34,917 bases of DNA from IMG/VR virus record IMGVR_UViG_3300028025_002147, positions 1-34,917 of that record; one strand, written 5' to 3'. This DNA comes from a virus. The position numbers and the translations under genes are program-made. Shown here piece after piece: positions 13,464-32,729 of the stretch. Position 1 is the first letter of the stretch. Every line of letters starts with the position of its first letter. The notes under the pieces are model-generated. The model saw only the letters and a program-made list of their open reading frames with translations. It searched no databases and was not told the origin of the DNA.

Positions 13464-13916
13464 ATGAGTAACCATACACTTCAGCCGTTAGCCGCATGGA
13501 TAACTGAGTCCGTAGAAGACCCAGAAGTATTAGAGTTTTTGACGATGGTGTATCACGCTATTGAAACTTGGGATGACATTGTTGACAAAGACAATCAGGT
13601 GACTGTGGATGATATGCACGATGTGTTTACTCAACTGCTTATAAAGTTACCAGCCAACGAATTTTATAGAGCCAACTACGCTGCACTGGCGGGTATGTTG
13701 ATTGTGGTGATTACTGCTTGGCATACGTCAAATGAGATTGATGGGTCTGCAGAAGGCAAAGCGCACGGCTACACGTTGCGCAAAGAGTTTATTAACTTGG
13801 TCGTGCTGTGTGTTGCCATGACTGGCAGTGTTGCAGATGCACGCAAAGCGTCGTTGTTGGGGTGGACATGCTCTGCTGCCAATGATTCCTTTGACGAATT
13901 TATAAGGGGCGAATAA
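13464..13916 (+). CDS. Unknown helical protein with DDIVDKD motif
   Basis: The 150-residue product is probably all-helical. Near residues 37-44 lies an acidic WDDIVDKD motif, and near 73-82 a hydrophobic stretch (LAGMLIVVITAW), too polar around it to be a sure membrane segment. A second hydrophobic stretch (FINLVVLCVAMTGSVADA) follows at about 110-127. The DDxxD-like motif recalls isoprenoid synthases, but length and context do not support that. No ribosome site precedes the ATG. Its TAA overlaps the next start (TAATG), tying it to the internal virion genes. Confidence 0.6.
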   Translation: MSNHTLQPLAAWITESVEDPEVLEFLTMVYHAIETWDDIVDKDNQVTVDDMHDVFTQLLIKLPANEFYRANYAALAGMLIVVITAWHTSNEIDGSAEGKAHGYTLRKEFINLVVLCVAMTGSVADARKASLLGWTCSAANDSFDEFIRGE

Positions 13917-14749
13917 TGGGATGGCTTGGCGGAGGTACAGCACCTGCACCTGATCCTGCGATTGGGCAGGCTCAAAAACAATTAGCGGACTTGTCTACTG
14001 AACAGTGGAACACGTTCAAGACCGATATTTACCCAACGCTTCTCAAACAACAAGAGAAAGCGGATAAACGGGCTGATGAGATATGGGCTCAAGATAAAGA
14101 AATTAGTTCATTCAATCTTGAACAAGCTAAGAAGTCTACTGAGCGTTACGAAAAGACGGCTATTCCAGCCATGGAAGCGCTTAAGAAAGACGCTGATCTT
14201 TACAACACTGCTGGTTACCAGGAACAAATGGCAGGTCAAGCCGTTGGCGATATTGCCGCAGCGGAAGAAATAGCTCGTCAAACTGGAATTCAACGTGACC
14301 GTTCTTATGGTATTGATCCAACGTCAGGTCGTTCTGGTTTGGGTTTCAACGCAAACAATGTGACTGCTGCGCTTGCTAAAGCACAGGCTGGCACTCAAAC
14401 ACGCGAAGCTGCTAAAGCTCTTGGTTTACAAAAACAAGCCAACGTGTACAGCATGGCCGCAGGACTACCAATGCAATCATTACAGCAGACTGGAAGCGCA
14501 GTTAACGCAGGCGGTGCGGGCATTGCCGCTGGTGAATCTGGTATGAACGCTACGATGAAAACCAGTGGTGCATCTAATGCTGCCTCTGGAACCGCTATGC
14601 AGGGTTGGGGCCAAGTGGGTAACTTGGGCGTTAATAAATATCAAGCTGATATCAGCCGTTACAACTCTGAGTCTGCAAACAACCCATGGAACATGGTGCT
14701 TGGTGCTGCTGCTGGTGTTGGTACTAAATTCGCTTTAGGTAAGATTTAA
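13916..14749 (+). CDS. Internal virion protein, small helical type
   Basis: The 277-residue protein starts with a Gly-rich MGWLGGGTAPAP, then a long charged helix (residues 20-85). The second half is Ala/Gly/Asn-rich (SAVNAGGAGIAAGESGMNAT) and ends with a hydrophobic NPWNMVLGAAAGVGTKFALG. This layout is like T7 gp14 or P22 ejection proteins, which leave the virion and enter the host envelope with the DNA. It is the first of three consecutive genes of rising size (277, 485 and 2668 residues), as in T7 gp14-gp15-gp16. The assignment rests on layout, not on a diagnostic motif. Confidence 0.6.
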   Translation: MGWLGGGTAPAPDPAIGQAQKQLADLSTEQWNTFKTDIYPTLLKQQEKADKRADEIWAQDKEISSFNLEQAKKSTERYEKTAIPAMEALKKDADLYNTAGYQEQMAGQAVGDIAAAEEIARQTGIQRDRSYGIDPTSGRSGLGFNANNVTAALAKAQAGTQTREAAKALGLQKQANVYSMAAGLPMQSLQQTGSAVNAGGAGIAAGESGMNATMKTSGASNAASGTAMQGWGQVGNLGVNKYQADISRYNSESANNPWNMVLGAAAGVGTKFALGKI

Positions 14750-14759
14750 GAGGCAAATT

Positions 14760-16217
14760 ATGGCAAGTTCATTTGCTCAAGGTTTTCAGATGGGTGGCAG
14801 CATGTACGACTCTGCGGAGCGTATGAAACTTGCCAAGGAACAACAAGATTGGGCTCGTGAAGAGGCTTTAGCCAAACGTGCTGAGCGTCAGCGTGAAGCG
14901 GATATTCGTACCGCTGGTGCAGAAACTATTAGCATGGAAGGTAAGCCTGTCGAATATTTAGGCGGTACTGGTATTGATAGAGGTCCACAACCTGCTGAAG
15001 CGCAAACCGCTTTGCGTTCTGACATTGCTACTGCGCCTGCCAAAATATATTCAGCCGAACAAGCACAGCAAGATTATTTGCGTCGTTTACGCGCACTTGA
15101 CGTAAACAAAGCGCAACAATATGAAAAGGGTGCATTAGAGCTTGGCGAACTTAATCGCGCTGCACGCTACTCAAAAAACCAAGAGCTTGCCCTTGGGTTT
15201 AACAATTCAGTGATTCAAGATTTAACTGAAGCCAATGGTGACGCTGCGTCTGTTATTGAAAAACGGTTTATCCCTTTGTACAACGCCGATAAGCTAGATG
15301 GTTTTAAAGACGGTGGTCGAGCAAAGATTGTCCCTAGTGCTGTAGGCGGCGATAAAAGTATTGTTATCACGTACAAAGACGGTAAGCAAGAAACAATGCC
15401 TGCCGACATGAAGACTCTGCAAGAGTTGACTAATTACACGCAAGATAAAATGATGCGGTCTTCGACTCCAGAGAACTACTGGAAAGCCAAGACACAGGCA
15501 CTTGAAGAACGCAAAACAGCGGCTACTGAATCATCTGCTGCATCGTCTGCTATTTCTGCTGGTGCCACTGCGCAAAATGCCGCTACAAACGCTAAACAAT
15601 TAGATGCACAAATTAAAGCTGGTTTGTTTGAAGCCCAAGCTGGTCAAGCCCGTGCAAGTGCTGCTTCATCTACGGCGCATGCGGCTGTGTATCGAAACAT
15701 GGCTGAGTTGTACAAATCAAACAAAGAAGCTGGTGAAGCAGTTAAGCCGTACTTGACTAAGTATGAAGCATTAACTGACAAAGAAAGAGACGGTCCTGAA
15801 GGCCAACGTATCTTGGAAGAAGGCGCTTTAGCTGCTGCTAAAAAATCAACTGATGTCACAGCCCTTATTAACAGCTTAAAGAAAGCTGATAAGTCTAAGC
15901 CGCCTGAAGTTAGCCCAGAAGCATTTAAAAACGCATATCAAGATTTGCGCGAAGCCGGTAATGACACTGAAGCTATTAAAGCAGTCAAAAAGAAATGGCC
16001 CATGGTATTTGGAGAATCCAAATTGGATAAAGCTATGGGGGGCACTTCAGACAAATCGGTTGAGCCTGTTGTAGAAGGTCGTCCTCTCTACAATAAAACA
16101 AATGCTGAACTATTAAAAATGGCCAAGCGTGCAATTGGGACAAGTACCTCTGATGCACGGGATGCCCAAGCTGAGTTAGATGCTCGCAAAGGTGAGCCTC
16201 GTATGAAAGCATTTTAA
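14760..16217 (+). CDS. Internal virion protein, long helical type
   Basis: The 485-residue protein begins FAQGFQMGGSMYDSAERMKL, then has a Gln/Arg-rich coiled coil (EQQDWAREEALAKRAERQRE) and a small beta segment near residues 185-215 (IVITYKDGKQETMPADM). A long Ala/Gln-rich coiled-coil region follows (about 235-340). The last 60 residues (NKTNAELLKMAKRA) look like a short helical tail domain. ATG 14760 follows an AAGAGG site. Its size, composition and place before the giant protein fit a T7 gp15-like ejection protein. Confidence 0.6.
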   Translation: MASSFAQGFQMGGSMYDSAERMKLAKEQQDWAREEALAKRAERQREADIRTAGAETISMEGKPVEYLGGTGIDRGPQPAEAQTALRSDIATAPAKIYSAEQAQQDYLRRLRALDVNKAQQYEKGALELGELNRAARYSKNQELALGFNNSVIQDLTEANGDAASVIEKRFIPLYNADKLDGFKDGGRAKIVPSAVGGDKSIVITYKDGKQETMPADMKTLQELTNYTQDKMMRSSTPENYWKAKTQALEERKTAATESSAASSAISAGATAQNAATNAKQLDAQIKAGLFEAQAGQARASAASSTAHAAVYRNMAELYKSNKEAGEAVKPYLTKYEALTDKERDGPEGQRILEEGALAAAKKSTDVTALINSLKKADKSKPPEVSPEAFKNAYQDLREAGNDTEAIKAVKKKWPMVFGESKLDKAMGGTSDKSVEPVVEGRPLYNKTNAELLKMAKRAIGTSTSDARDAQAELDARKGEPRMKAF

Positions 16218-16228: not shown

Positions 16229-19200
16229 ATGGCGACACTTGAACAGCTTCGGGCATATTTCCCTACTGCTGAGTCTGACTCAGATGCCATTAAAATGGCG
16301 GCTAAACGCTTTGGTATTGATCCAACTGAGATTGCCGATGAAGTTGGGTTTAAGTTTAATAAACCTGGGTTTTTCTCTGACATCAAGCGTGGAACTGGCC
16401 AAGCGATTGGTGCGATTGGTTCAACTGCGCGTGATTTTGGATTGCCTAATGTTGGTAAAGCTGTAGAAGGCTATGGTGAAGATGTTGCGTATCGCAACCC
16501 CTCGCAGATCAATACTGTTGGTGAGGCAATCCGTAACCCTTTAACTACCATTCGTGAGTCTGTTGGTGAAATTATTCCGCAAATTGGTGTGGCTACTGCG
16601 TTTGGTTTGGGTGGCCGCGCATTAGGCGCTCTTACGCCCGTCCCCGGAGGTTCCGCAATTGGTGCTGCTGCAGGTACATACGTTGGTAACCTACTCCAAT
16701 CGTATGGCGGTATTCGTGCTGAACAGCGTGAACAAGGTATTGAAGACAAAGGCCGCGCAGGCGTTACCGGTGCTGGTTCTGCTTTCTTAGATACCCGGTT
16801 TGGTGCTGAACGCATTGTCAATAAATTTTTATCCAATGGTTCTGACATTTTGGCTCGCGAAGCCGGTACAAGTTTAGCCAAGCAAGTTGGTAAACAAACT
16901 GCCATTGGCGTTACAACTGAATCACTTACCGAAGGTGCGCAGACTGGAATAGAACGTTACGGCGCGTACAAACCATTGACTAGTGACGAAGCCTACAATG
17001 AGTATGGCTTGTCCATGATTAAAGGCGGTATTGGCGGTGGTGTAATTCGTGGCGGTTTAGCTTCTATTTCTGGTGAGCGCCCAGTCCAAAGTGGTAACGA
17101 TATCCAACAGGCATTCAGCCAGCCTGAAGTCAGTAGTACTCCCATCAACAACATAGCCCCGCCTGTTGACCCACTCGTGGCAACCCCAGCACAGCCTGCT
17201 GCACCTTCTTCTGTGGAGACGAGCGTCCCTGTACCCCCTGCTGTAACAGGGGGTACAACAGATATTGCACAGCAGACTCAAGCTGCTGCCGCTGAAAACC
17301 AGCAAGTGCAAGAAGCGCAACAAAATTTAGCCAAGCGGGAAGAAGTGTTTGGCAAAGTAGCCACACTGTACGATCCAGAGAATCCAACATCATTAAACAT
17401 CTTTGGCCAGAACATTGAAGGCCCACGTGTCGCACCTTTTGGTGATCGCTTTGCTGCAGTATTTAATACGTTGCCACCGCACGTTCAGCAAATTGCTCAG
17501 GCCATTACACAAGCAAACAATGCATTTGCTACGCCTGAAAAGCCAAGCCCACTGGTAAGTTTTAATTTCAATGCCAACAACCCTGTGCCTTCAGCAGATA
17601 AAGCTGTTGCAGCCCTTGGCAAAGTGATGACCAAGTTCCAGATTGACCACGTTCAGTCATTGGATGAAGCTACTCAGATTCTCAACAAACTCTCGACGAC
17701 TACCAAAGGTAATCAACTGGAGCAACTCAACGCCATCTACGAAGCCCTGACAGGCCAAGATACAGATGGATTTACAGCAGCACAAACCGCAAAAGCGGAA
17801 AAAGGAGCTAAAGATGGAAAATTGCCTGTGCAAACAACTACCGGGCTGGGAGCAGTATCAGTCGAAGGCGGAGCAGGAGAAGCAAATGCAGCAGTCGATG
17901 GGAATGTACAACCCAGCGGAATTCAATCCGTCGGGACAGGAAGTCTCCCTGCAGGATCGCTTGGCCTCCAAGTTGGACAGTCACCAGCAGAAGGAATACG
18001 GGATGGCACCGGTGCAGTATCCAATGTTGTCGGTAGTAACGCGCCGTCGCAAGTAACAGGAGCTGCAAATGAACAAGCCAGCCAAGGCGCTTTGGGTGGC
18101 GGGCAAGCACCCGGTCAATCCCAGCAAGCCGGTCAACCCCTCGTGGATCAGCAATCTGTACAAAATGGCCCTCGCCAATACGACCCCCGCATCGGCTTCT
18201 ACTCAACCGACCTCAGCCACATCTCGAGTGAACGGCGTGTCGAATTAATTTCCGACTTACTACTGCGTGTACTAGCACCACTGCAAAACCGTAAGAACAC
18301 TGTACCCGCTGAGAAGCGAGCAGAGATTCTTCGCTTGGCTTTGCTTGAGCAATTCCGTCATGCAGACATTGCAGAGTACACCGGTCTTAAGGTAGACACT
18401 GTTGAAAAACAACTTGAGCGCATGGGCGTTAAGTTAGTTGATGGTGAATTCCAAGTCATCGACCCTGAATTTGCTGTACGGATTGTGGAAACAGCCACAG
18501 CGTACAGATCACCTGAGTTCCCTGATGGCATTGGTCAAGGCGAGCTGGCTGGTTTGTACAACACCCGTTACGAAGGTGACGAGCAATCTGCTGCATCATT
18601 AGCGGAAGAACTTGAAGCTGGAGAACAAGAAGGTAAACCTGGGGCCAAACTACAAGAAGAACTTGGTGGTAAGGAAGACAAAGAAGGTCAGACCATGGGC
18701 ACGGTCGCCACTGCTGGTGGTAGTCAAGGTGCTGTTGATAGTGAAGGTACTGCCGCACTAGCCAAAATAGAAAAGCTGCAGGCTGCTGTAGACAAGAATC
18801 CGCAAGATAAAAAAGCAGTAACCGCCTTGGCAAATGCTTGGACAGCTTACGCAAAAAGCCAAAAAGAACGAGCAAATAAAGGCGAGAAGACTGTCAAACA
18901 AGAGTCTGAAGAAGAGGCAGACTTGACGGGCGAAGTTGTAGCTGAAGAACCAAAAGAAGAAACCGTCAACGAAGTTGAAGTAGCCAAGCGTAACAAAGTT
19001 GTGGACGAGGCACGTGCCAAAGCTGCAGCCGATCGCAAAGGGCTAGACGTTGGTGACACAGTCATAAACCCCAAATTGGGTACCGGTAAAGTTTTAAGCT
19101 TTGCCGGTAATGGTGACGACACCAGAGTAACTGTCGAATTTCAAAGCGGGCAGACCAAAGAACTGCTTGTTAAATCTGCCAAACTGGAGAAAACGAATGC

Positions 19201-22200
19201 CGTTCAAAAGCCAAGCACAACGGAAGTTTCTGTTCGCGAAGGAGCCGGAGGTGGCAAAGCGGTGGGCCAAGGAAACGCCCAAGGGGGCAAAACTGCCGGA
19301 AAAGCTGAAGTCAAACCAGAGCCCAAGCAAGAAGCCAAGCCCGAAGAAATAAAGACACCTACTGAACAGTGGGCAGTCGTTTCAACACTAGCACCGGAGT
19401 TGCCCCCATATGACGTTCTTACAAATTCTGAAAAGACTCGGTGGGATGATCTCGTCCGCCGTGGACAAGCTAACCTTGCTGCTGCTGTCAAAATTGTCGG
19501 TGAGAGTACTCAACCTGCTGGCACAGCATTGGCCAACCAAGGACCTCAGGCAACGGGCGTTGATGGAACTACTCAGGCGGTAACCAACGAAGCCAACGTT
19601 ATTGACGTTGAAGCTCGTGTCATTGATGAGACAGTTGGACCGCAGGTTGCTGCATTGCCAGCACCACAAGTTGATCGTTTAGAGAAGCACTATGGTGTCA
19701 AGCGTGACAGTGCTGAGTTCCTTGCCAAGATTAAAGAAGACGTAGTCAAGTACGCAACCAAAGGTGCAGAGGCTGTCTCTGCTGCCGTGCGTGACATTAT
19801 CAAAGCAATCCATACCGGCGTGTTGGCTGCCGCAATGGTCTTTAACCCCACAGCAATTTCTAAAGTTGAATCCTTTATTGTGATTCCGCAAGAGACTCAG
19901 ACTACACAGCAACAAGTATTGGCTACAGTGCCTGCTGAAGCTTCCATGATGTCTGATGCTGGTAAACAAGCCTACGAGCGTTTGATCCCTGCCCTGAAAG
20001 GCAAGCTCGGTAACAAGTTCATTACCATTGCTGACAAGCCTAGTGGACGTATTTTTGTATTTAAATCTGATGGAAGTTTTGTTCTCCAAAAGAAATCATT
20101 ATTTGGTCTGGCCAAGGGTGATTTATACAAAGGCAATAACGATTTGCCACAGAACCGTGTTACTCCCGCTGGTTTGTTTGGCATAAAAATCATTGATGCA
20201 GCCAAGGGCGGTAGTGCCGCTAAAACCGCTGGAGAATATGACTTCGGTAAAGTGTTTGCCTTAGAAGACCCAGATGCGGTCGTTACATTCATGCACTCGG
20301 TTTGGCTCAAAGAAAAAGATGCCCCCCAACGTGCTGCTGCTTTGAAAAGCGAGTCCGCTGCTGATTCCCGCTATTCGTTTGGTTGCATTAACGTAGACAA
20401 AGAAACCTACCGTGAGTTGATTACCAAGTACGGTGACAACATGGATGGTTCTAAACTGTTTGTTGTTCCTGACGTACAAAGCACAGTCAATGACTTCATT
20501 ACTGGAAACGTTGCTGATGACAGATTAGTACGTGAGGGTGTGCAACCAGTTACTAGAACAGTAACTACGCCAGTAAGGTCTGCTACTCAAGTGGCTGGTG
20601 CTGACCGCAGCGTTGTGGGCAAAGAAGAACAAACCCCATCATTTAATAGTAAGAGCGCCAAGTTCATGGAGTTCTCTGACCTTGAGGATGAGGTTAAAGG
20701 TATCAGCGACGTTCGTGAACAGTTTGCTGACATGGACATAGAAGGTGCTTTGGATTTTGTATCTGATTGGCAAGTTATTAATGACCGTTCCAAAGACGCA
20801 TTCCATGGGCAGCTTAAGACCGAGAACGGTAGATACATTGGTGTATTAAACCTTGCCAAGATGTCAAGCCCAGCGTATGCCGCTGAAACAGTCCGCCACG
20901 AGGTTGCTCACGCAGTTGATATGGCCCCACATGGCGGTGTGTATTCACATCAGCTTGAAATGAATGTGGAAATTAAAAATGGTAAAGTTGTCCCCTTTGG
21001 TGAAGTTGCCAAAGAAATGTTTGCGTTGTATGAAAACAACAAAGCGTTTACGACTTTTCTCGATTACCCATTTAACATCAAGGTTCATACCGACTTAGAC
21101 ACCAATGGCAAGATTGAAAGCGAACTGTTTGCCCAAATCTTCTCAATCTATACAAACCCGAAGTACACAGACTACATTGCATCAGTCGCACCCAAGACTG
21201 CTACTTTCTTGGAAGAGGTAATAAATGACATTCGCACAACGACAGCGCTTCAAATCCAGAAGAGCACAACTGCAGCAACAAGAGCCATCGACTTCCGTAA
21301 TCGATATACCGCCCGCCGCGATCAACGGGAGGCTGGAGTTTATGGCGGAAATAGACAAACAGATGAAGGACCGTTCAACAGCCGAGGCCAAGGGCGAGAG
21401 TTCACAGCCGACCAAGTAATTGGTGCGCTACCCAAGCCGTTGCAGAAGTCGGCTCGCAGTCAGTGGACTAACATCAAGACTCTTGCCAAACGCGGCATGT
21501 ATGCCTCTGCAATTACAGAAGACGTTATTGGTATGGCTAAGAAGTACATGCCTTCTGCCGCCAAATATCTGCAAGCTCAATACGCCCGTCAAGGCACACG
21601 CTTAGAGTTTGAGAAACGTATTGAAAACATCCTGTCTAGATTTGATAAACTGCCCACCAACTTAAAAGGTGAAGGTAAAGGTAGCGTCAACGAATACATC
21701 CATGATTCCACTCGTGAGAAGAAGTGGGGCTACTATCCTGGTGAACAACAAGTAGGCACTAAGCTGTTTGAAGTTGACCCAGACTTTAAAGAACGCTTTG
21801 ATAAAATTCAGGCGCAAAGTCCTGCAGCTGCTCAGCTTATTAAAGATGTGTTCCGTCATGGCCATGAAGCCCTAAAGCTTAAGCAGAAGGCTGCTGAGGA
21901 CGCAGTAAACCGTGAGTTTGATTCGCGTATTAAAGCTGCTGGTAGCGATGCAGACTTGTTACAAAGCCTGAACAAAGAAAAGCGTCAGATGCTCAAGCGT
22001 ATGTCTAGCTTGCGTAACGTGAATGTGTCTGACCCATATGCGTACCTTGGTCGCTATGGTGACTACGTTGTAATTGCTAAGTCAAAAGAGTTCACCGCTT
22101 ATGAAAAAGCTGCCACCGGCACAGAGTCTAGTGTACGGGGCGACTCTATTATTGGTGACCCGCAGCAAGCCAAGAACTGGTTGCAAGAGAATGTGTCCAA

Positions 22201-24235
22201 TCCGCTCCACTACGTAGTCCAGTTTGCTGAGACGCAAGGTGAGGCTGATGATATTGCCGCTGAACTTGAGGCTACTGGTAACTACGATATACAGCCTGAG
22301 GATGCTGGCATTAAAGAAGTGAATGCTTCCTACATGGGTGACTCCGATGTTCATATGGCTGTTGCTCGTTTGCGCAACTTAGTTGGTAGGCAGTATGGTC
22401 AATCGAAGTCCACCGATGGTAGATTAGATAAAGCCATTTCTGACCTGTATCTGATGACAATGGCTGAGGCCAGTGCACGTCGTTCTGAACTCCAGCGTAA
22501 GAATGTTTCTGGTGCAGATAAGAACATGATGCGCAACTTGGCTACCAGTGGTCGTGCTGATGCACACTTCTTGGCTACGATGGAACGCAGTGACGAACTA
22601 AATGACGCACTAGAAGCCATGCGCGCTGAAGCTCGTAGAAACCATAAAGACGCCATGCCTTTGTACAATGAACTGTACACCCGCTATGCCGACAGCATGG
22701 AGTATGAACAACCCGGCGTGTTGACGCAGAACCTGTTACGTATGTCAACGCTGTGGAACTTATCAACCAGTCCAGCGTACTATCTTCAGCAGGTGCTTCA
22801 GACTTCTGTGTTGTCTTTGCCTTACATGGCAGGCCGTCTTGGCTACTTCCGTTCAGCTCGTGCTATCAAGCGGGCTTACAACGACATGTCTGGGCTTATA
22901 GCGGGTCTGGGTATTAATGATCCCATTGACTTTGACAAAGCTCCAGCTGATGTACGGTTTATGCTCAAGGAACTTGTCCGCATGGGTAAGATCGACATTG
23001 GTATTGATGCAGAAGCCAGAGCACGTACAGATGAGCAAGGTGTGCTTGGCAAAGTTATGTTTAAGCTACAAGGTGTTAATACACGTATTGAAGCAATCAA
23101 CCGCGCCACAGCTGCCATTGCTGCCTACCGTGGGTACACAGACCGATACAAAGGTGCCACTGGTGCTGACGGTGTTCGTTTTGCTGCCGAAGTAGTATCC
23201 AACACGCATGGTAACTACGATGGGTTTAATACGCCTCGTATCATGCAGAGCGGCGGTGCTAAGGTTTTGCTGCAATTCAAACGCTTCCAAATCATTCAGC
23301 TGTCCATGCTTGCCAAGCTGATACACACTTCGTTTAAGGGTGCTAGTGCGGAAGAAAGAACAATTGCCCGTGCATCGTTGAAGTACATTACTGCGCATAT
23401 GGCTGTACTTGGTGGTGCTTTGGGTGTGCCGTTTGTGTCTCAAGCCGCAAGTATCTTGTCTAGCATATTCGGTGATGAAGATGAGCCCGATGATTATGAA
23501 TATAAGTTACGACGCATGATAGGTAATGATGCCGTGGCTGATCTGTTGCTTCGTGGTGTTCCTGCCGCACTTGGACTTGAGTCCATTGGTAAGCGTTTGT
23601 CCATGGAGAACGTTGCGTCTCCGTTTGGTCCGTTCGTGGATTTCAACTTAACGTCTCGCGCAGATGCAGCTCAGATGATTGTGGGGATGATGGGCCCTGC
23701 AGCCGGTTTAGGACTGAAGTTCGTTGACGCGCTTGGTATGATGTCCAAGGGCAACTACTATAAGGGCTTAGAGATGGCGTTACCTAATGGTATAGGTAAC
23801 GTAATGAAGTCGTACCGCTTTGCCACTGAAGGCATTACGATGCGAAATGGGGACTTGGTGATGAAGCCTGAAGAGATCAGCATGATTGATGCTGCTTTCC
23901 AAGCTGTTGGCCTCCCCACTACGACCATTACTGACAGACAATACACTCAGAAAGTGGTTGCCGAATTTGATAAGTTTTATGCCTCACGTGCAGGCGAAAT
24001 TAAAGCGAGTTATGTTGAAGGCTCTCGAGCAAGTGACCCAGCAGCAATGGCTGAGGCTCGCGATGACTGGCAGAAGTTGCAAGAGTCGAGAGTTAGGAAC
24101 GGGTACAAGCGTCAGTCAATGTCTGAGTTGTTCCGTGCACCAGCTGAAGCGCGTAAGCGTGAGCGTGGTGTTGTTGGTGGCGTAGAAACCACTAAATCAA
24201 ATCGTAGGTTTGTTGAAGCACAAGTTAACCAGTAA
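16229..24235 (+). CDS. Giant multidomain internal virion/ejection protein
   Basis: The product has 2668 residues. From the N-terminus: a Gly/Ala-rich, possibly membrane-active region (about 100-280); Pro/Gln linkers; a helix-turn-helix-like segment (about 680-745, FRHADIAEYTGLKVDTVEKQ); acidic coils; a DUF3553/UvrD-tail-like domain (937-989, LDVGDTVINPKLGTGKVLSF); an L,D-transpeptidase-like domain (about 1261-1414, TPAGLFGI, H1356, SFGC with C1386); and a zincin-like domain (HEVAH at 1557-1561, ELFAQ with E1632). A long helical C-terminal region contains RIEAINRATAAIAAYRGY (about 2285) and LLQFKRFQIIQLSMLAKL (about 2347). That end resembles T7 gp16-type and other giant phage ejection proteins. 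Inferred role: leaving the virion with the DNA, opening peptidoglycan and bridging the envelope. No frameshift is seen. Confidence 0.8.
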   Translation: MATLEQLRAYFPTAESDSDAIKMAAKRFGIDPTEIADEVGFKFNKPGFFSDIKRGTGQAIGAIGSTARDFGLPNVGKAVEGYGEDVAYRNPSQINTVGEAIRNPLTTIRESVGEIIPQIGVATAFGLGGRALGALTPVPGGSAIGAAAGTYVGNLLQSYGGIRAEQREQGIEDKGRAGVTGAGSAFLDTRFGAERIVNKFLSNGSDILAREAGTSLAKQVGKQTAIGVTTESLTEGAQTGIERYGAYKPLTSDEAYNEYGLSMIKGGIGGGVIRGGLASISGERPVQSGNDIQQAFSQPEVSSTPINNIAPPVDPLVATPAQPAAPSSVETSVPVPPAVTGGTTDIAQQTQAAAAENQQVQEAQQNLAKREEVFGKVATLYDPENPTSLNIFGQNIEGPRVAPFGDRFAAVFNTLPPHVQQIAQAITQANNAFATPEKPSPLVSFNFNANNPVPSADKAVAALGKVMTKFQIDHVQSLDEATQILNKLSTTTKGNQLEQLNAIYEALTGQDTDGFTAAQTAKAEKGAKDGKLPVQTTTGLGAVSVEGGAGEANAAVDGNVQPSGIQSVGTGSLPAGSLGLQVGQSPAEGIRDGTGAVSNVVGSNAPSQVTGAANEQASQGALGGGQAPGQSQQAGQPLVDQQSVQNGPRQYDPRIGFYSTDLSHISSERRVELISDLLLRVLAPLQNRKNTVPAEKRAEILRLALLEQFRHADIAEYTGLKVDTVEKQLERMGVKLVDGEFQVIDPEFAVRIVETATAYRSPEFPDGIGQGELAGLYNTRYEGDEQSAASLAEELEAGEQEGKPGAKLQEELGGKEDKEGQTMGTVATAGGSQGAVDSEGTAALAKIEKLQAAVDKNPQDKKAVTALANAWTAYAKSQKERANKGEKTVKQESEEEADLTGEVVAEEPKEETVNEVEVAKRNKVVDEARAKAAADRKGLDVGDTVINPKLGTGKVLSFAGNGDDTRVTVEFQSGQTKELLVKSAKLEKTNAVQKPSTTEVSVREGAGGGKAVGQGNAQGGKTAGKAEVKPEPKQEAKPEEIKTPTEQWAVVSTLAPELPPYDVLTNSEKTRWDDLVRRGQANLAAAVKIVGESTQPAGTALANQGPQATGVDGTTQAVTNEANVIDVEARVIDETVGPQVAALPAPQVDRLEKHYGVKRDSAEFLAKIKEDVVKYATKGAEAVSAAVRDIIKAIHTGVLAAAMVFNPTAISKVESFIVIPQETQTTQQQVLATVPAEASMMSDAGKQAYERLIPALKGKLGNKFITIADKPSGRIFVFKSDGSFVLQKKSLFGLAKGDLYKGNNDLPQNRVTPAGLFGIKIIDAAKGGSAAKTAGEYDFGKVFALEDPDAVVTFMHSVWLKEKDAPQRAAALKSESAADSRYSFGCINVDKETYRELITKYGDNMDGSKLFVVPDVQSTVNDFITGNVADDRLVREGVQPVTRTVTTPVRSATQVAGADRSVVGKEEQTPSFNSKSAKFMEFSDLEDEVKGISDVREQFADMDIEGALDFVSDWQVINDRSKDAFHGQLKTENGRYIGVLNLAKMSSPAYAAETVRHEVAHAVDMAPHGGVYSHQLEMNVEIKNGKVVPFGEVAKEMFALYENNKAFTTFLDYPFNIKVHTDLDTNGKIESELFAQIFSIYTNPKYTDYIASVAPKTATFLEEVINDIRTTTALQIQKSTTAATRAIDFRNRYTARRDQREAGVYGGNRQTDEGPFNSRGQGREFTADQVIGALPKPLQKSARSQWTNIKTLAKRGMYASAITEDVIGMAKKYMPSAAKYLQAQYARQGTRLEFEKRIENILSRFDKLPTNLKGEGKGSVNEYIHDSTREKKWGYYPGEQQVGTKLFEVDPDFKERFDKIQAQSPAAAQLIKDVFRHGHEALKLKQKAAEDAVNREFDSRIKAAGSDADLLQSLNKEKRQMLKRMSSLRNVNVSDPYAYLGRYGDYVVIAKSKEFTAYEKAATGTESSVRGDSIIGDPQQAKNWLQENVSNPLHYVVQFAETQGEADDIAAELEATGNYDIQPEDAGIKEVNASYMGDSDVHMAVARLRNLVGRQYGQSKSTDGRLDKAISDLYLMTMAEASARRSELQRKNVSGADKNMMRNLATSGRADAHFLATMERSDELNDALEAMRAEARRNHKDAMPLYNELYTRYADSMEYEQPGVLTQNLLRMSTLWNLSTSPAYYLQQVLQTSVLSLPYMAGRLGYFRSARAIKRAYNDMSGLIAGLGINDPIDFDKAPADVRFMLKELVRMGKIDIGIDAEARARTDEQGVLGKVMFKLQGVNTRIEAINRATAAIAAYRGYTDRYKGATGADGVRFAAEVVSNTHGNYDGFNTPRIMQSGGAKVLLQFKRFQIIQLSMLAKLIHTSFKGASAEERTIARASLKYITAHMAVLGGALGVPFVSQAASILSSIFGDEDEPDDYEYKLRRMIGNDAVADLLLRGVPAALGLESIGKRLSMENVASPFGPFVDFNLTSRADAAQMIVGMMGPAAGLGLKFVDALGMMSKGNYYKGLEMALPNGIGNVMKSYRFATEGITMRNGDLVMKPEEISMIDAAFQAVGLPTTTITDRQYTQKVVAEFDKFYASRAGEIKASYVEGSRASDPAAMAEARDDWQKLQESRVRNGYKRQSMSELFRAPAEARKRERGVVGGVETTKSNRRFVEAQVNQ

Positions 24236-24244: not shown

Positions 24245-24499
24245 ATGGCAAAGTCACCAGCTTGGCAACGCAAAGAAGGCAAGAACCCTGAAGGCGGATT
24301 GAACGCCAAGGGTCGTGCATCTTACAACAAAGCAAACCCCGGCAAGCCCGGGCTTAAAGCACCACAACCTGAAGGCGGTTCACGCAAAGATTCTTTCTGT
24401 GCACGCATGGAAGGAATGAAGAAAAAGTTAACCAGTGATAAAACGGCTAACGATCCTAACTCACGTATTAACAAATCACTGCGCGCTTGGAAGTGTTAA
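24245..24499 (+). CDS. DUF6321-like small basic phage protein
   Basis: The 84-residue Lys/Arg/Gly-rich protein has a strongly patterned sequence known from many phages: SPAWQRKEGKNPEGGLNAKG, then LKAPQPEGG, then DSFCARMEGMKKKL, then NDPNSRINKSLRAWKC at the C-terminus. Two cysteines (in FCARM and the final WKC) are conserved parts of the pattern. It has no known function. The basic charge suggests nucleic-acid binding or packaging in the capsid. It follows the giant gene by 9 bases with an AAGGA site, and its stop lies in the A tract of the convergent terminator. Confidence 0.8.
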   Translation: MAKSPAWQRKEGKNPEGGLNAKGRASYNKANPGKPGLKAPQPEGGSRKDSFCARMEGMKKKLTSDKTANDPNSRINKSLRAWKC

Positions 24500-24577: not shown

Positions 24578-27541
24578 TTAGTGCGCAGATGATACTGCAC
24601 TTTCCTCAGTTTGCACAAGTGATACTGGACCACTGGTGTTTTCTACAGTACCTTCCATGGCTGAGAAGTCAAACGCAAAGCATGTGCAGCTACCAGTTGA
24701 GTAGGCTGTACCCCTTCCCATATTGAACTTTTCCTGCCAAGGAATAATCCATCCGTTGTCGGTGGCGTACTTAATCATCTCCTTGGGCTCCATGCGGTTC
24801 TTGGAACACCAGTCGCCAAATTCCTTCTTGGCTAGGAACAGCTTACCGATGTACTTGTCCTTACCCTTGGTGGTCTGATTGCCAATGATGCGACGACCCG
24901 CAGGGGTTCCCATAATTCTAGAGATTGAATCTTCAGGTCCACGAGAGTCGGTACGCAGATCGCGATACTCAGTTGTCACTATGATGCGGTTGGACAAGTC
25001 GCGAATCATGCGGTTCAAGGCATCAGAAGGTGAAGTCATATTGCCTGCCACGATAGCCTCAGTCAGGTCACCCATCAGCAAGGTCGTGAACTCAACAAGT
25101 TTATCGTAGTCAAATGAGATAACCTGCAAGTCAAGCAGAATCCTGGCAGCCGTTAGAGTTGCAGTCGCATGGCTTCGAAAGAACCTGTATTCACTCTGAG
25201 GTAGGATGACAGCCAACTTCGCTTCAGTCGTGGCCCACAGTTTAGCCACGGCATCTTGGTTTGTAACCACGTACTTGATAAACGCATCGCCTGCACACCC
25301 CATGTTGTCCCGCATCTTGTCAAGCGCATCGGATACTTCAATGGCGTTCTTGAAGATAGGTACGTTGTACTTGGAGAAGTTGATGGCGATCATACGCACC
25401 GCTTCTGCCTGAGTATTGGCATTGTGTGAGGCTAGTTTGGCGTGCATGTCCTCGTTGGCTGTGATACCAACAACGGCTTTCCAAGTGTGCTGTTCAGCGA
25501 ATCCAACCTTACCACCACTGGATGTCAGTCGGGCTCGGTCAGTTCCTTGGGAGACTGTATACGCAAAACTACTTACTTCAGCCGCATCCATGTCGGTCAG
25601 CTCGTCAAAGACAACAGGCATGTTTTGGTGTGCACCCACGATAGCCCAGCGAGCATTACGTGTCGCACCATCCTTACCGGGGATGACTAACTTATTGGCA
25701 TCAGCAAGGCCGTACAGTGCGGCTTTCCATACAGTGGTCTTACCCTTACCGGACGTACCAGAGTTAACTGCAACCAATGCACCGTTGTAACTGTCTTCAC
25801 CAAATGGTGTCAGGATAGAACCGAACACATTGCAAAACACATATTGAGCAGCTTCACTGTTCTCTCTGTTATACACAAAGTTGACAGCTTCAGCGTAACC
25901 TTCAATTGTTCCACGTGGAACAGGGTATGTATTTTTATAGGTAGCAGCCGCACCACCAACATAGACCCTACGAATAGAGCCATCGGTATGGTACAAGCGG
26001 TCACCTAGTAGAAACCCTGACATGTTCTCACGCCACCCAAATGAGGTCAGAGTATCAACTTCCCTCTGCTCAGTCATCAGCTTGGTAATGGAATCACGGA
26101 TATACGCAGTCAGGTGCATAGTTGCGTCCTTATTATTAGAAGGCATCAATTCATACTTAGACATAGCCTTGAGCAAATCGGCTGACGAAGCAATAGCGGC
26201 TGTGTCAACTTCAAATTCTCTAATGCGTTTGTCCGGCAGGTGCATCCGAATCGTGAATGCAAACGCCCCATCAGCCTTCTTGATGCGTTGAATAGGGTAG
26301 AACAGTTGGTAGCAGAATGTAAAGGGTTGGTTTACACCATCCTTGTCCTTGATGAATCGAATCATCCGATTGTTCTGATACTCGTAAGTCTCAGGCAACG
26401 CAGGGACTACAGTCTCAACGACAACTTCCTCTTCCACAACTTCGACAACCTTTTCCTCAGGCTCAGGGATGACGCGCCCTAGTTGTAGCGGTGTGGTAAT
26501 CTTGCCTTTATGTGGGCACCCAGCACAGCCAGCTTCATTGTCTCGCTCAATCCTAGCGCAACTGGTCGGGTCAGCGTTCCAAGTTTCAAAACGTGTTACC
26601 ACATCCGTATTGGAATGTTTATCAGCGCGGTTTTCGCTCCATTCATGGGCAAGATCAATACCTTCGGTGCAGAAAGTTATGAGTCCAATAAGATTGAACC
26701 ACGTGTGGTATTCCACATCGCCCTTGGTATCCCGCATCACCCGCATTTGTTGGCAATGGTTAGCGACCAGTCGAGCAGATGTTTCGTACTGTGGTCCATC
26801 GTATGGTGTGATCAAGTCATCATTTAAACCAGGCGCTGATGAATAGTTTGGTACGTGAGCTTGGAGTGTTTTTACTATGCGTGAGACTGCGGCTGCAAAT
26901 TCTTGTGGTTCAACAAATGTAGGTTCGTTCTTAACCTTGACTTCACGGACTTCACGTCCAGCTTTACGATTATGAGTGCCTGCGGGTCGCAGGATAGAAG
27001 ACAAGTCAGCAGTGCGGGTCGGATCAACCAGCAGTCCAGCGGCATTAAGTGCGGCTTTAAATTCATTAGCAATTGCTCGCCAACTGTTAGGGCCTATGGT
27101 TTTAGTCAAAGGCCAGTAGCAATGTAGTCCACCGCCTGAATCAACAAGCATGGGTTTAGGAAACTGGTGCGTCTTACAGAATCCAAGGATTGCTTTGGCC
27201 GCTTCTGTTTTATTTAAGTAGCCTTTACCTTCAGCGGCTTTGTCTTCACCGCAGTCGATATCAATCCAAAAGGACTTGGCTTTATCCCAGTTTTGTGCGC
27301 CTCGGAATTTGGTTTTGGTTACACCATTAACTTCAGCTTCATAGCTTGCCGCCTTATAGGAACAGCACGCGTGGTAGACAATCAGGTTGTTTTGCGCATC
27401 ATAAGATTCAATAGCTTGCGCCATGAGCTCGAGAGACTCATAGGCTTTGTGTGCAATGCCATCGCGTCCAACACGTCCCAACCCTACGAACTTAAACCCC
27501 TCCTCAGGAAGGATTGTTTGCAGGAATTTGAGCGTGTTCAT
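24578..27541 (-). CDS. Primase-polymerase fused to AAA-type helicase
   Basis: The 987-residue protein has an N-terminal archaeo-eukaryotic-type primase domain: FWIDID (D94, D96), SGGGLH (S135-H140) and LRPAGTHNRK (residues 184-193). A cysteine cluster at about 328-345 (CARIERDNEAGCAGCPHKG) may bind zinc. The C-terminal half has Walker A NSGTSGKGKTT (about 590-600) and Walker B MPVVFDELTD (about 640-650), as in DUF927-like superfamily 3/AAA helicases. It should unwind DNA and make primers for the phage polymerase. It is the last gene of the leftward operon, starting 3 bases after the previous stop, with the terminator just beyond. Confidence 0.88.
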   Translation of the reverse strand: MNTLKFLQTILPEEGFKFVGLGRVGRDGIAHKAYESLELMAQAIESYDAQNNLIVYHACCSYKAASYEAEVNGVTKTKFRGAQNWDKAKSFWIDIDCGEDKAAEGKGYLNKTEAAKAILGFCKTHQFPKPMLVDSGGGLHCYWPLTKTIGPNSWRAIANEFKAALNAAGLLVDPTRTADLSSILRPAGTHNRKAGREVREVKVKNEPTFVEPQEFAAAVSRIVKTLQAHVPNYSSAPGLNDDLITPYDGPQYETSARLVANHCQQMRVMRDTKGDVEYHTWFNLIGLITFCTEGIDLAHEWSENRADKHSNTDVVTRFETWNADPTSCARIERDNEAGCAGCPHKGKITTPLQLGRVIPEPEEKVVEVVEEEVVVETVVPALPETYEYQNNRMIRFIKDKDGVNQPFTFCYQLFYPIQRIKKADGAFAFTIRMHLPDKRIREFEVDTAAIASSADLLKAMSKYELMPSNNKDATMHLTAYIRDSITKLMTEQREVDTLTSFGWRENMSGFLLGDRLYHTDGSIRRVYVGGAAATYKNTYPVPRGTIEGYAEAVNFVYNRENSEAAQYVFCNVFGSILTPFGEDSYNGALVAVNSGTSGKGKTTVWKAALYGLADANKLVIPGKDGATRNARWAIVGAHQNMPVVFDELTDMDAAEVSSFAYTVSQGTDRARLTSSGGKVGFAEQHTWKAVVGITANEDMHAKLASHNANTQAEAVRMIAINFSKYNVPIFKNAIEVSDALDKMRDNMGCAGDAFIKYVVTNQDAVAKLWATTEAKLAVILPQSEYRFFRSHATATLTAARILLDLQVISFDYDKLVEFTTLLMGDLTEAIVAGNMTSPSDALNRMIRDLSNRIIVTTEYRDLRTDSRGPEDSISRIMGTPAGRRIIGNQTTKGKDKYIGKLFLAKKEFGDWCSKNRMEPKEMIKYATDNGWIIPWQEKFNMGRGTAYSTGSCTCFAFDFSAMEGTVENTSGPVSLVQTEESAVSSAH

Positions 27542-27544
27542 GGA

Positions 27545-27796
27545 CTACACCCCTGTGATGATTCGCTTGTCCTGTGCCTCGGCTCCGATCTTGAGGGTTT
27601 TCCCTATATGGGCAACCGCTACATTCAGAAGCTCACTGGCTTGAAGCTGAGTTTCAGCAGACTCCACAATGACGCGTCCAATTAGCTCGGCAAGTCCCAA
27701 GATAACTTCACCATGGTTGAATCCTTTATCGTTCAAGGCACCGTTGGCCTCCAACACGACACCGACAACTTTTCTCTGATCTATTTCATATGACAT
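27545..27796 (-). CDS. Small unknown protein upstream of primase-helicase
   Basis: The 83-residue product begins MSYEIDQRKVVGVVLEANGA and is mainly helical (GEVILGLAELIGRVIVESAE, then LQASELLNVAVAHIGKTLKI). ATG 27796 follows a TTGGAG site. I recognise no family. The tight spacing to the primase-helicase suggests they are translated together. The preceding gap (27797-27879) holds runs of G and C and a short AAGCTT palindrome, but no convincing signal. Confidence 0.6.
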   Translation of the reverse strand: MSYEIDQRKVVGVVLEANGALNDKGFNHGEVILGLAELIGRVIVESAETQLQASELLNVAVAHIGKTLKIGAEAQDKRIITGV

Positions 27797-27879
27797 ATGT
27801 ACTCCAAAAACAAAGGGTGGGGGTACTAACTGCTCGTCCGCAAGCTTAAAAGCCTTTGCACAGCGTTCCCCCCGTTAAA

Positions 27880-28764
27880 TTAGTCGTCGAAGTTCAAGTC
27901 ATCTAGGTTCAGATCGACAGTAACCTCAGGTTCAACCACTTTGGGTTCAGGCTTGGGCTCAGCTTTAGCTTTTGGTTTAGGTTCAGCTTTTGGCTTCTCT
28001 ACCACAGCAATAGGCTTGTCCAAGGCGGCAACAGTATCGTCAACTGCAACGACACCAGTACCAAGAATAGACGCAACTACCTCAGTATCTACCACTGCCC
28101 TGACCTCATTGTAGGCGGCTTCGGGCAAATAACCCATAGCCTTGAACGTCAGTTTTGGCGTAGCGGCTTCGGCTTCAAAAGCAATCTTAGTAACCACTTG
28201 CGAATAGTGTAAGTTGCGTTTCTGCAACGCTGCGGCATACTCACTCAGTGCCTTAATAGAGGCAGGCGGAACCCGTAATAAGTACGGGTCGTTGATTAAC
28301 CCAGCGGCTGCAATAGCCAAACGCTTGGAGTCTTGGCAAGCTTTACCCTTACCGCCATTGTCGCCAATCTTGCTACCCCACTGATTGTGAGCGCAAGTAG
28401 AACACTGCTTGGACTGCGGGTTCTTGGAGTTGTCTTCGGGCTTAACGCCTTCATTACTGTAGCAGTCAGGCTTCTGATCTTCGCCACCCTCTTGGTAGCC
28501 CTTGGCGTAGTACACCTTAGACACACCTTTGTTGCCTTTGAGCAACACAACCTCAATAGCCGTTGCGGGGCTATCAGGGTCTTTAGGGTTCATCATGGTT
28601 GTGCGGTCGCCACCACGCACAATGGCAAATATCTTGCCTTTGATGGAGACTACGGGAAAACCCGTACTAACGGTTGATATCAAATCACCGTTTAAGTTCT
28701 CCACATTTTGGTTCTTTAAATACGCAGGCAGATTGCCAGATTCAAATGGAATGATTTCGCTCAT
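27880..28764 (-). CDS. Candidate single-strand DNA-binding protein with zinc site
   Basis: The 294-residue protein has a beta-rich core (residues about 30-90, FPVVSIKGKIFAIVRGG). Four cysteines (C101, C121, C124, C143) could bind zinc as in T4 gp32. A Lys/Pro/Ala-rich linker (about 252-278) leads to an acidic tail (VDLNLDDLNFDD). Acidic tails are typical of phage and bacterial single-strand binding proteins (T7 gp2.5, T4 gp32, SSB) and recruit replication partners. It lies among replication genes and has a strong AGGAG site. No direct family match is certain. Confidence 0.65.
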   Translation of the reverse strand: MSEIIPFESGNLPAYLKNQNVENLNGDLISTVSTGFPVVSIKGKIFAIVRGGDRTTMMNPKDPDSPATAIEVVLLKGNKGVSKVYYAKGYQEGGEDQKPDCYSNEGVKPEDNSKNPQSKQCSTCAHNQWGSKIGDNGGKGKACQDSKRLAIAAAGLINDPYLLRVPPASIKALSEYAAALQKRNLHYSQVVTKIAFEAEAATPKLTFKAMGYLPEAAYNEVRAVVDTEVVASILGTGVVAVDDTVAALDKPIAVVEKPKAEPKPKAKAEPKPEPKVVEPEVTVDLNLDDLNFDD

Positions 28765-28784
28765 GTGTTTTCTCCTGTTAAAAA

Positions 28785-29165
28785 TTATGATCTACGAATG
28801 CCAATAGTTCGTTCTACACGCCAGTCAATACCTGGGGGTACGACTTCATGTTCGTCTTTATATTGCTCAATGGCGGACTGAGCCGCACGCTTTTGCAACA
28901 TATGCCATGCGTTGTTCTCTTTACAGAACGTCATGAACGCATCGGGGTCTGCAATGGATGCAGTAGTTCTTGAGGACGCATATGCGGTACCAAATTCTGT
29001 GCGTACAGAATCCATACCTGCCGCGTCAAATGTCTTGAGCAGTGCCGCCTCAATCTTGTCTAGTACTTCGTCGACCTTGGCTATCTTGCCGTCGTACTCA
29101 GCTTTCATCTGAGCTTTCTTGTCGCGTACCTCAATGTATTTTGCTACTAACTCTGATATTTTCAT
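28785..29165 (-). CDS. Conserved phage protein, N-terminal coiled coil
   Basis: The 126-residue protein has a charged helical first half (ISELVAKYIEVRDKKAQMKA, then KIAKVDEVLDKIEAALLKT). A compact second half follows: TEFGTAYASS, then DPDAFMTFCKENNAWHMLQK, ending VPPGIDWRVERTIGIRRS. I know this pattern (TExGTAY, PPG, C-terminal IRR) from many phage replication regions, where it has no assigned function. It lies between the unknown 227-residue gene and the candidate SSB, so a replication accessory role is plausible. Confidence 0.7.
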   Translation of the reverse strand: MKISELVAKYIEVRDKKAQMKAEYDGKIAKVDEVLDKIEAALLKTFDAAGMDSVRTEFGTAYASSRTTASIADPDAFMTFCKENNAWHMLQKRAAQSAIEQYKDEHEVVPPGIDWRVERTIGIRRS

Positions 29166-29222
29166 GTTTGTCCTAAGGGGGTGTTAGCTTACTCTTATTT
29201 GGTGTGTCTGTACTAAGTGTTT

Positions 29223-29906
29223 TCACTCATATGATTCAATTCCTTTCTGATATGTTTGAAATGCTATGCCGTTCTTAGCGCTTCCTACTTTTGCGTCTTT
29301 ACGCCAAAAACGTTTGCCCAATTTACTAATTACCCAATGACCGCGTCTGTCATGCAGTCGAGGTGAAGCATGTGTTCCGCCTTTGGGTTCGCTTATATAT
29401 CGTGGCGCGTCTAAGTTCACAGTTGTCCAAGTAAATAGTGGACGTTTACCTTTAGCTTTCCTGCGTGCATTAGCTGGGTTTGGGGTTGAAACGTATGCAA
29501 CCCCACCATGTGCGTTTATTTTGTTGAGTGTGTCAAATATAAACGTTGCATAAGATGCTGCTATCTCAAGCGTTATAGCTTTGTCAATTGGCTTGACTTC
29601 AAATGATGTGTCTGGCATTACGGTCATATTAAACTGACCGGCTACATACAATTCCTGAAAATTAAATGTTGCCCCCGAAATCAGAACCCCTCCATGTTCA
29701 CGAGGTGCAATTGCAAAAACAGCGTGATTATTATTGGGAGTAACAAATACAAGCGCGGTATTAGAGAATGGAAGTTTACAGCCATTTGCAATGAACTCTT
29801 CTGCATGCTTCGTATCAGGTGCGATATCATTACCGTTAAGCACGAACACCTTTGCGTCGCCAACATCTATGAATCGAAGCGCTAACGCTACATCAGGGCT
29901 CATCAT
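29223..29906 (-). CDS. Unknown protein with RRGHW motif
   Basis: ATG 29906 is chosen because AAGGA lies 7 bases upstream. A TTG at 29912 is in frame but sits next to that site. The 227-residue product has a beta-rich N-terminal domain (FVLNGNDI, then ALVFVTPNN, then VFAIAPREHGGVLIS). The basic C-terminal part contains SPRLHDRRGHWVISKLGKRF and ends with GIAFQTYQKG. The C-terminal pattern (HxRRGHW, aromatic, Gly, Tyr) occurs in several phage proteins of unknown function. The gene overlaps the helicase stop by 14 bases. Confidence 0.65.
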   Translation of the reverse strand: MMSPDVALALRFIDVGDAKVFVLNGNDIAPDTKHAEEFIANGCKLPFSNTALVFVTPNNNHAVFAIAPREHGGVLISGATFNFQELYVAGQFNMTVMPDTSFEVKPIDKAITLEIAASYATFIFDTLNKINAHGGVAYVSTPNPANARRKAKGKRPLFTWTTVNLDAPRYISEPKGGTHASPRLHDRRGHWVISKLGKRFWRKDAKVGSAKNGIAFQTYQKGIESYE

Positions 29907-31461: not shown

Positions 31462-31725
31462 TTATTTTCCATATGCACTTCCATTGCTTCCTCTCCAGCC
31501 ACGGTTCTTTTCTTTATCAACCACACGCAAGTTTGACTTGTCGTTTGTGCCTTTACCATCAAGCATCTTCTTGTGATCTACGTCTTTACCATCGCCCTTT
31601 TTTACCTTGCCATCACGTGCCATTTCAGCACGTGCTTTGTTACGCATCTCGCGTTTGTCTACTTGCTCGGGACGTGCGTTGTACGCCTTGTCATAGGCCG
31701 CTTTAGTTGGTCCGCCTTTGTTCAT
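31462..31725 (-). CDS. Small basic HNH-like protein
   Basis: The 87-residue Lys-rich protein contains GKDVDHKKMLDGKGTNDKSN, then LRVVDKEKNRGW. This follows the DH...N...N spacing of the HNH nuclease core, with Asn in place of the last His. There are no zinc-binding cysteines. It may be a nicking enzyme or a non-catalytic DNA-binding relative. ATG 31725 has a very strong GGAGGTGA site and lies 23 bases inside the VRR-NUC gene. Confidence 0.65.
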   Translation of the reverse strand: MNKGGPTKAAYDKAYNARPEQVDKREMRNKARAEMARDGKVKKGDGKDVDHKKMLDGKGTNDKSNLRVVDKEKNRGWRGSNGSAYGK

Positions 31726-32658: not shown

Positions 32659-32668
32659 AGGAGTTGCG

Positions 32669-32690
32669 CCCGAGGGGTAAAAACCTCAGG
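32669..32690 (-). promoter_or_regulatory. Leader hairpin before the nuclease gene
   Basis: Bases 32684-32690 pair with 32669-32675 (seven pairs in the leftward RNA, one of them G-U) around an 8-base loop. It ends 10 bases before the ATG and lies within the short predicted leader. No T run follows, so it is not an intrinsic terminator. It could be a translational control site or a transcript-stabilising end. Confidence 0.4.
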
Positions 32691-32701
32691 TGATGGTGTG
32701 T

Positions 32702-32729
32702 ATGTTAGGGCATCCATAGCAGATGTCAA
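32702..32729 (-). promoter_or_regulatory. Candidate sigma70-type promoter for nuclease-helicase-primase genes
   Basis: On the - strand a perfect TTGACA (32729-32724) is followed after 16 bases by TAACAT (32707-32702, four of six). It sits in the 77-base gap just after the DNA polymerase stop. The predicted start is about 36 bases before the nuclease ATG. It would drive the downstream replication genes separately from the polymerase. Confidence 0.5.

Follow-up and report, generated by a model that had tools for sequence, protein, structure and literature searches.

The 8-kb open reading frame at positions 16229 to 24235 of the window (the whole stretch of DNA analysed, an IMG/VR record of 34,917 bases) is best read as the gene of a virion-packaged polyvalent protein and not of a relative of T7 gp16. 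Our main reading, to which we assign a probability of roughly 0.7, is that the product is a packaged protein of the ejection block with exchangeable cassettes in its middle, and that its gene carries three nested small genes, here called A, C and B. Directly supporting this reading are the intact frame, the homologies of its domains, the conservation of a catalytic motif, the variation of the cassettes among relatives, and selection on the nested frames, with its onset at the start codon of A.

The giant frame and its genomic setting

The genes of the block around the giant frame are as follows.

9424-11094: gene with a profile match to PHROG 511 'internal virion protein', upstream of the giant
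13916-14749, plus strand: preceding virion protein, PHROG 8003 'virion structural'; in a complete relative, its homologue has a PHROG 4287 match
14760-16217, plus strand: 485-aa gene without a match in the family searches, second in the three-gene block
16229-24235, plus strand: giant polyvalent protein in the ejection slot, 2668 aa (open frame, PLxRFG domain, relatives, dN/dS)
24245-24499, plus strand: small DUF6321 protein directly 3' of the giant (E 5.3e-20)

The giant frame is open over its whole length, with no internal stops. A counterpart of 2661 aa with matching domain order was found on an independent contig, L003 (IMGVR 3300004240_000026, 36 kb), and one contig scan returned 22 loci related to the giant gene, some contigs having been fetched twice in the locus counts given here. 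The counterpart and the further relatives show that the 2668-aa frame is not an assembly artefact. The whole-gene dN/dS was 0.13 in comparison to L003 and 0.09 in comparison to L004, which indicates that purifying selection keeps the entire giant frame. The single 8-kb open frame reported by the first-pass annotation was therefore confirmed as intact and under selection, its estimate of about twice the length of T7 gp16 was accurate (2.02 times, T7 gp16 being 1318 aa), and the search that it had proposed for full-length relatives, with assembly error as the competing possibility, found one with equal domain order and ruled that error out. Absences reported below are valid for the collections and papers searched.

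A tail fibre gene also lies upstream of the giant. The setting is seen best in a complete relative of 57.7 kb with 127-bp terminal repeats, which carries TerL, a portal (PHROG 332), a major capsid protein (PHROG 267) and an endolysin. In this genome the homologue of the gene at 13916-14749 (PHROG 4287 'DNA ejection protein', E 4.8e-15) is followed by a 579-aa gene and then by the giant, and this order places the giant where podoviruses keep their large ejection protein. Judged from gene order and homology, the giant is the third gene of a podovirus late module, after a homologue of 'DNA ejection' proteins.

Two other parts of the window were inspected by eye. A predicted 354-aa protein among the tail genes (5477-6541) is glycosyltransferase-like with TPR-like repeats, and the minus strand at 24578-34586 resembles a replication module, with a primase-like 987-aa protein, an SNF2-like helicase, a VRR-NUC-like nuclease, a PD-(D/E)XK-like nuclease and a family A DNA polymerase.

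Constant ends and exchanged middle

The regions of the giant protein, all encoded on the plus strand, are listed below.

16229-17098: Gly/Ala-rich N-terminal region, aa 1-290 (PHROG 6958 'virion structural protein'; divergent types in relatives)
17324-17773: conserved region, aa 366-515, function unassigned (conservation among relatives)
18311-18421: Sigma70 region-4-type helix-turn-helix (HTH), aa 695-731 (E 5.4e-5, below the Pfam cut-off)
19040-19192: UvrD/PcrA-type Tudor domain, aa 938-988 (E 7.3e-8 to the C-terminus of the helicase II model)
19571-19933: helical module paired with the transpeptidase, with a conserved hydrophobic segment at its end, aa 1115-1235 (alignment of relatives)
19934-20503: L,D-transpeptidase (LDT) domain of YkuD fold, aa 1236-1425 (catalytic H1356 and S1383-F-G-C1386-I-N1388; dN/dS 0.01)
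20654-21328: zincin metallopeptidase domain, HEVAH at aa 1557-1561 (Z 12.5 to an M34-type peptidase fold)
21386-22195: helical region before PLxRFG, aa 1720-1989 (alignment of relatives, model)
22217-24166: PLxRFG domain NF032893, aa 1997-2646 (282.6 bits, curated cut-off 100)

At the N-terminus, residues 107-281 match PHROG 6958 with an E value of 9e-7, and a crude hydropathy scan detected no strong transmembrane helix there; the 'membrane-active-like' part described previously corresponds to this Gly/Ala-rich region with its virion-protein match. At the other end, the PLxRFG match (E 6.6e-84) covers the last ~650 residues. The end that had been called 'gp16-like' is indeed helical, but it is a PLxRFG domain and is not detectably related to T7 gp16: homology was rejected on hhalign probabilities of 2.6% (C-terminus) and 0.3% (N-terminus), and homology to T7 gp14 was likewise rejected by profile comparison. 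A fold search with the C-terminal model, which has low confidence (pLDDT 60), returned nothing significant.

The N-terminal and PLxRFG ends are a constant scaffold, and the middle is a cassette zone. Among the relatives, the middle holds ParB (L004, L012), LPD23 (L008, L011, L015), ART-PolyVal (L033) or other HExxH-type regions, and it occurs with or without the LDT. At the end of the zincin region, codons 1666-1710 (about 21224-21358) showed low synonymous divergence in three comparisons without the +1 pattern described below for the nested genes, possibly reflecting recent recombination or another constraint.

The L,D-transpeptidase domain

The part that had been termed 'wall-active-like' proved to be an L,D-transpeptidase (YkuD-type) domain, as indicated by YkuD hits in relatives, the match in fold and a conserved catalytic motif. 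Taken alone, the window domain matched Pfam YkuD (PF03734) weakly, with E 0.052 and 14.6 bits against a cut-off of 23.4. The same family was matched by 36 of 51 LDT relatives at E < 0.1, with a best value of 2.1e-7, and the cut-off was passed by the homologous domains of L045 (27.9 bits) and P0002 (27.2 bits), whose giants also carry LPD38. An AlphaFold2 model of the LDT part, with a pLDDT of ~81-97 over the block, superimposed on LdtMt1/2, YkuD, Csd6 and Pgp2 with Z of ~11 and an rmsd of 2.1-3.3 A over 112-139 residues. In addition, the phage-LDT profile found open frames of Variovorax/Comamonas at E values of 1e-18 to 1e-22, which carry the same S-Y-G-C-I/V-N motif and two of which are annotated as L,D-transpeptidase. 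H1356 was present in 50 of 51 aligned rows, and each of the 50 rows extending to the motif has S1383, G1385, C1386 and N1388; the second His of the canonical SHGC is Phe or Tyr in the phage domain. The LDT also had the lowest dN/dS of the whole protein, 0.01, in two pairwise comparisons (L004 and L006). No match to lysozyme or SLT (lytic transglycosylase) was obtained for the giant in Pfam and PHROGs.

All 55 LDT loci found have the domain within a larger frame, which is a giant wherever it is complete, and the helical module with its hydrophobic segment precedes the LDT in nearly all cases. Neither the LDT nor the helical module is present in L005 and L007, although their N-terminal and PLxRFG parts share 84-91% identity with the window protein. 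The LDT is thus an accessory and not an essential core of ejection, and its role may not be entry. The domain also appears to have been exchanged. In L023 it is 93% identical in amino acids, with flanks beyond the helical module and linker mostly at 20-36%, and the resulting tree conflict points to exchange of the LDT; a recent transfer of the cassette into L023 was rejected, since synonymous sites are saturated, which makes the exchange old, and the tree conflict stands.

This distribution bears on what the whole protein is and on what its LDT does. According to the earlier reading, the giant is a plain gp16-type ejection protein whose wall domain is an obligatory entry lysin. The position after two genes of the ejection block and the fold of a peptidoglycan-type enzyme agree with it, but homology to T7 gp16 or gp14 is lacking, L005 and L007 lack both the LDT and its helical module, as just described, and the middle of the relatives is filled by effector-type domains (ParB, LPD23, ART-type), so that we consider this reading improbable. 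The Tudor domain and the nested genes were also absent from it. A stronger rival, still on the unlikely side, takes the LDT as a post-entry effector modifying the wall, for instance in superinfection exclusion or altered lysis, instead of opening a way for the DNA. Accessory distribution, the strong functional constraint implied by a dN/dS of 0.01 and homology to host proteins annotated as L,D-transpeptidase all fit such a role; a protein ejected together with the DNA, however, is expected in few copies and within a short time window, and the hydrophobic segment ahead of the LDT suits placement in the envelope during ejection. We prefer cutting or re-linking of wall peptides at the entry site as the function of the domain, with the post-entry effector as a live rival.

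The LDT and the N-terminus of the giant gave no tblastn match in isolated phages, and 17 pattern hits to the LDT in GTDB genomes yielded no confirmed case. A literature search for polyvalent protein, transpeptidase and phage found no paper combining them, and the text of the polyvalent-protein survey of Iyer et al. 2017 (PMC5512222) mentions neither transpeptidase nor YkuD; within the literature searched, an LDT cassette in polyvalent proteins appears to be undescribed.

An E. coli record that looks like a phage-plasmid carries a diverged LDT copy within an LPD38 giant of 2318 aa. This record (L088; CP061838.1, pSTEC648_2) is a 60.5-kb 'plasmid' with phage late genes, on which the YkuD + LPD38 giant is annotated as hypothetical and adjoins a GH104 lysozyme gene. 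A search of E. coli genomes with the LDT of pSTEC648_2 gave no match.

Zincin, helix-turn-helix and Tudor domains

The 'protease-like' and 'DNA-binding-like' parts of the first-pass annotation were both recovered, the former as the HExxH zincin with the M34-type fold and the latter as the Sigma70_r4-type HTH, at the below-cut-off score listed above. Zincins have been described in polyvalent proteins (PMC5512222), and the window zincin is in line with this. The literal HExxH motif was found in 31 of 48 giants (0.7 expected by chance), so that the motif is common and not universal, and its presence in all giants was rejected on this count. The Tudor domain matched solved structures of UvrD (E 3.9e-6) and PcrA (5dma, E 2.9e-4), and PF21196 below cut-off; it keeps the equivalents of PcrA F705 and K712, and W684 is replaced by Leu. 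The Tudor domain of PcrA binds RNA polymerase (PMC5397179).

Nested genes A, C and B

Three small frames lie within the giant gene on the same strand, at domain boundaries of the giant.

17814-18056, plus strand: nested gene A, 80 codons, frame +1 in the giant, SD AAGGAG (start, homologues, selection)
18069-18248, plus strand: nested gene C, 59 codons, frame +1, SD AGGAG (clearly supported only over its first ~26 codons)
19197-19352, plus strand: nested gene B, 'MPFKSQAQ' family (PHROG 1375), 51 codons, frame +1, SD GGAGA

In pairwise comparisons, synonymous divergence drops below nonsynonymous divergence in two linkers of the giant, and in a scan of the 2668 codons pS was lower than pN in the giant frame only at codons 526-645 and 991-1035, which lie over A/C and B, respectively. 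In these linkers the third position of the giant codons is the least variable and the first position the most, which is the pattern that conservation of the +1 frame would produce. For A, the pN/pS between the window and L004 was 0.02/0.18 in the +1 frame in comparison to 0.07/0.01 in the giant frame; for C against L016, it was 0.04/0.57 in comparison to 0.18/0.00; and for B against L005, it was 0.01/0.42 in comparison to 0.11/0.03. Control regions of the giant showed the ordinary pN/pS pattern, and the signal was gone where A (L046) or C (L029, L042) is absent. Selection switches at the ATG of A and not in the open +1 stretch upstream, which argues for initiation rather than frameshifting; at the corresponding boundary of B, few relatives have sequence over the stretch ahead of the start.

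An SD of at least 5 nt precedes 19 of 19 A starts, in comparison to 8% of background out-of-frame ATGs, and four SD-led ORFs of at least 45 codons were observed, a number reached in none of 500 synonymous-codon shuffles. No frame-disrupting changes in A or B were seen among the relatives. On these sequence criteria (purifying selection, start, SD and homologues), A and B qualify as protein-coding genes in their own +1 frame. C has a start, an SD and homologues, with selection visible over its first ~26 codons only. No relatives of A and C are known outside these giants. A fourth nested frame (19410-19583, 57 codons) was not accepted, its third codon position not being depleted of change.

Two other explanations of the linker signal were considered. 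Every nested frame is offset by +1 from that of the giant, which is what would be seen if A and B were reached by +1 frameshifting to give truncated giants with alternative tails, but the constraint begins at the ATG of A with none in the open +1 stretch ahead, SD sequences are enriched at the nested starts, and stand-alone B genes share the same start Met, making frameshifting very unlikely. Even less credible is an RNA or DNA element, or a recombination hot spot, without genes; the linkers do flank exchanged cassettes, but the pattern has a codon periodicity that fits the +1 frame, the least variable position being the third of the giant codon, it starts at the ATG of A and tracks the presence or absence of the ORFs, and B is annotated as a stand-alone gene elsewhere.

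B ('MPFKSQAQR...') matched PHROG 1375 with E 4.5e-4, and its family was matched at no fewer than 443 places in viral contigs. Among the best 80 loci, 42 lie within an ORF of at least 300 codons, in its +1 frame, and 38 are stand-alone or form the N-terminus of another protein, the nested share being biased towards the kin of the window. The giants hosting B form two classes that no long BLAST match connects, and the class unrelated to the window shows the same reversal, for example between L125 and L133, where pS/pN is 0.10/0.15 in the giant and 0.46/0.07 in the B frame. In L159 a stand-alone B begins 3 nt past the stop of a giant that shares 40% identity across 1120 aa with the L144 giant, in which B is nested. 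B-family genes with the same start Met are annotated in the isolate phages 023Pt_psg01 and FlowerPower. By these sequence comparisons, other phages carry B as an ordinary gene of its own, and its nested copies occur in giants of two unrelated classes.

Relation to known systems

The arrangement resembles T7 gp14/gp15/gp16 in that two smaller late proteins are followed by a large one with a wall-active domain; it differs in that homology is undetectable and in that the window giant has an LDT fold, with no lytic transglycosylase found. The similarity is greater to the polyvalent proteins from phages and conjugative elements surveyed by Iyer et al. 2017 (PMC5512222), which are giant and multidomain, occur in a late-gene context and combine zincin, wall-active and nucleic-acid domains. 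In the window giant, too, several disparate domains are joined in one polypeptide within a late-gene/virion context, and LPD23, LPD38, ParB and ART-PolyVal occur in its relatives. The survey, in contrast, lists lysozyme, SpoIID-like and DD-peptidase as wall enzymes, has no Tudor domain in its text, and nested genes were not found described in it.

The PLxRFG/DarB-like giants of Bcep22-like and Lastavirus podophages share the late position after smaller late genes and, in Klebsiella phage ZX1, the C-terminal PLxRFG domain; those of JC1 (gp69) and ZX1 differ in their size of 3.9-4.5 kaa, and that of JC1 in a helicase-type match. Searches of the phage collection for the LDT and A/B gave no match except stand-alone B-like genes. 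The gp69 of Burkholderia phage JC1, a DarB-like protein of 4515 aa in a similar late-gene position, was detected in CsCl-purified virions by mass spectrometry with 51 unique peptides (PMC9144972). With the bacterial L,D-transpeptidases (YkuD, LdtMt2; Csd6/Pgp2; DpaA), the phage domain shares the fold, the catalytic His and the S-x-G-C motif, and it differs by the F/Y at the canonical second His and by being embedded in a giant behind a helical module.

Overprinted genes are familiar in phages, as in Rz1 within Rz and in B, E and K of phiX174, where a second gene likewise uses another frame with its own start. The window differs in having three in one host gene, in disordered inter-domain linkers, and in that B, widespread as a gene of its own, is found nested within giants of two unrelated classes. 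Nested genes in such giants appear to be undescribed. The suggestion of a 'little-described system' accordingly holds for the LDT cassette and the nested genes, and not for the polyvalent/DarB-like/PLxRFG class itself, which has been described (JC1, PMC9144972).

Proposed mode of action and implications

In the model that we favor, the locus would be the last gene of a podovirus ejection-protein block, and its polyvalent product would be packaged in the virion and leave with the DNA, which we infer from the late-gene position and the JC1 proteomics. At the entry site the LDT would most likely cut or re-link peptidoglycan peptides, or free a wall-bound lipoprotein, the zincin would most likely process the polypeptide, and the incoming DNA and the host RNA polymerase would probably be the cytoplasmic targets of the HTH and Tudor domains. 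Of the 'whole ejection machine' that had been proposed for the one gene, a single giant frame in the ejection-protein slot with wall, protease and DNA-binding-type parts is supported; a whole machine is not, since two other late genes come before the giant and L005 and L007 do without the wall domain.

The disordered linkers of the giant would double as coding sequence for A, C and B in the +1 frame, with their own ribosome-binding sites, and the three would probably be translated as separate small proteins off the same late mRNA. As the simplest history, we infer that the small genes came first and that the giant came to read through them after neighbouring genes had fused.

A broader reading, which we hold tentatively at somewhat less than even odds, is that giant ejection/polyvalent genes hide an overlooked layer of nested genes, having grown by fusion through out-of-frame small genes that are still expressed, with the disordered linkers as their out-of-frame shadow, and that the giant here also delivers an LDT-type enzyme and a Tudor domain that docks on RNA polymerase. 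Giant polyvalent proteins are known, and their assembly and their role at the envelope are poorly tested; the nested genes offer a concrete and testable route for the growth of giant genes, by fusion across small genes. For annotation, gene finders that forbid large overlaps on the same strand overlook real phage genes, up to three within a single gene in this case. The LDT cassette suggests a virion-carried chemistry of wall remodelling unlike that of lysozyme or endopeptidase, and its presence or absence among close relatives provides a natural comparison for its purpose.

Further occurrences of the B family

In phage C75C1 (L093), positions 5625-6105 hold a cluster of small Lys-rich genes, including by eye a DUF6321-like gene, and a stand-alone B gene at 6001-6105 which is unannotated, the record having another frame there; in the window, the giant is directly followed by DUF6321 and has B within it. 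The B motif also forms the N-terminus of larger phage proteins, namely a 425-aa M48-type peptidase (L113), a 332-aa DUF5661 protein (L106) and a 1517-aa protein (L166), and may thus serve as a targeting or binding tag.
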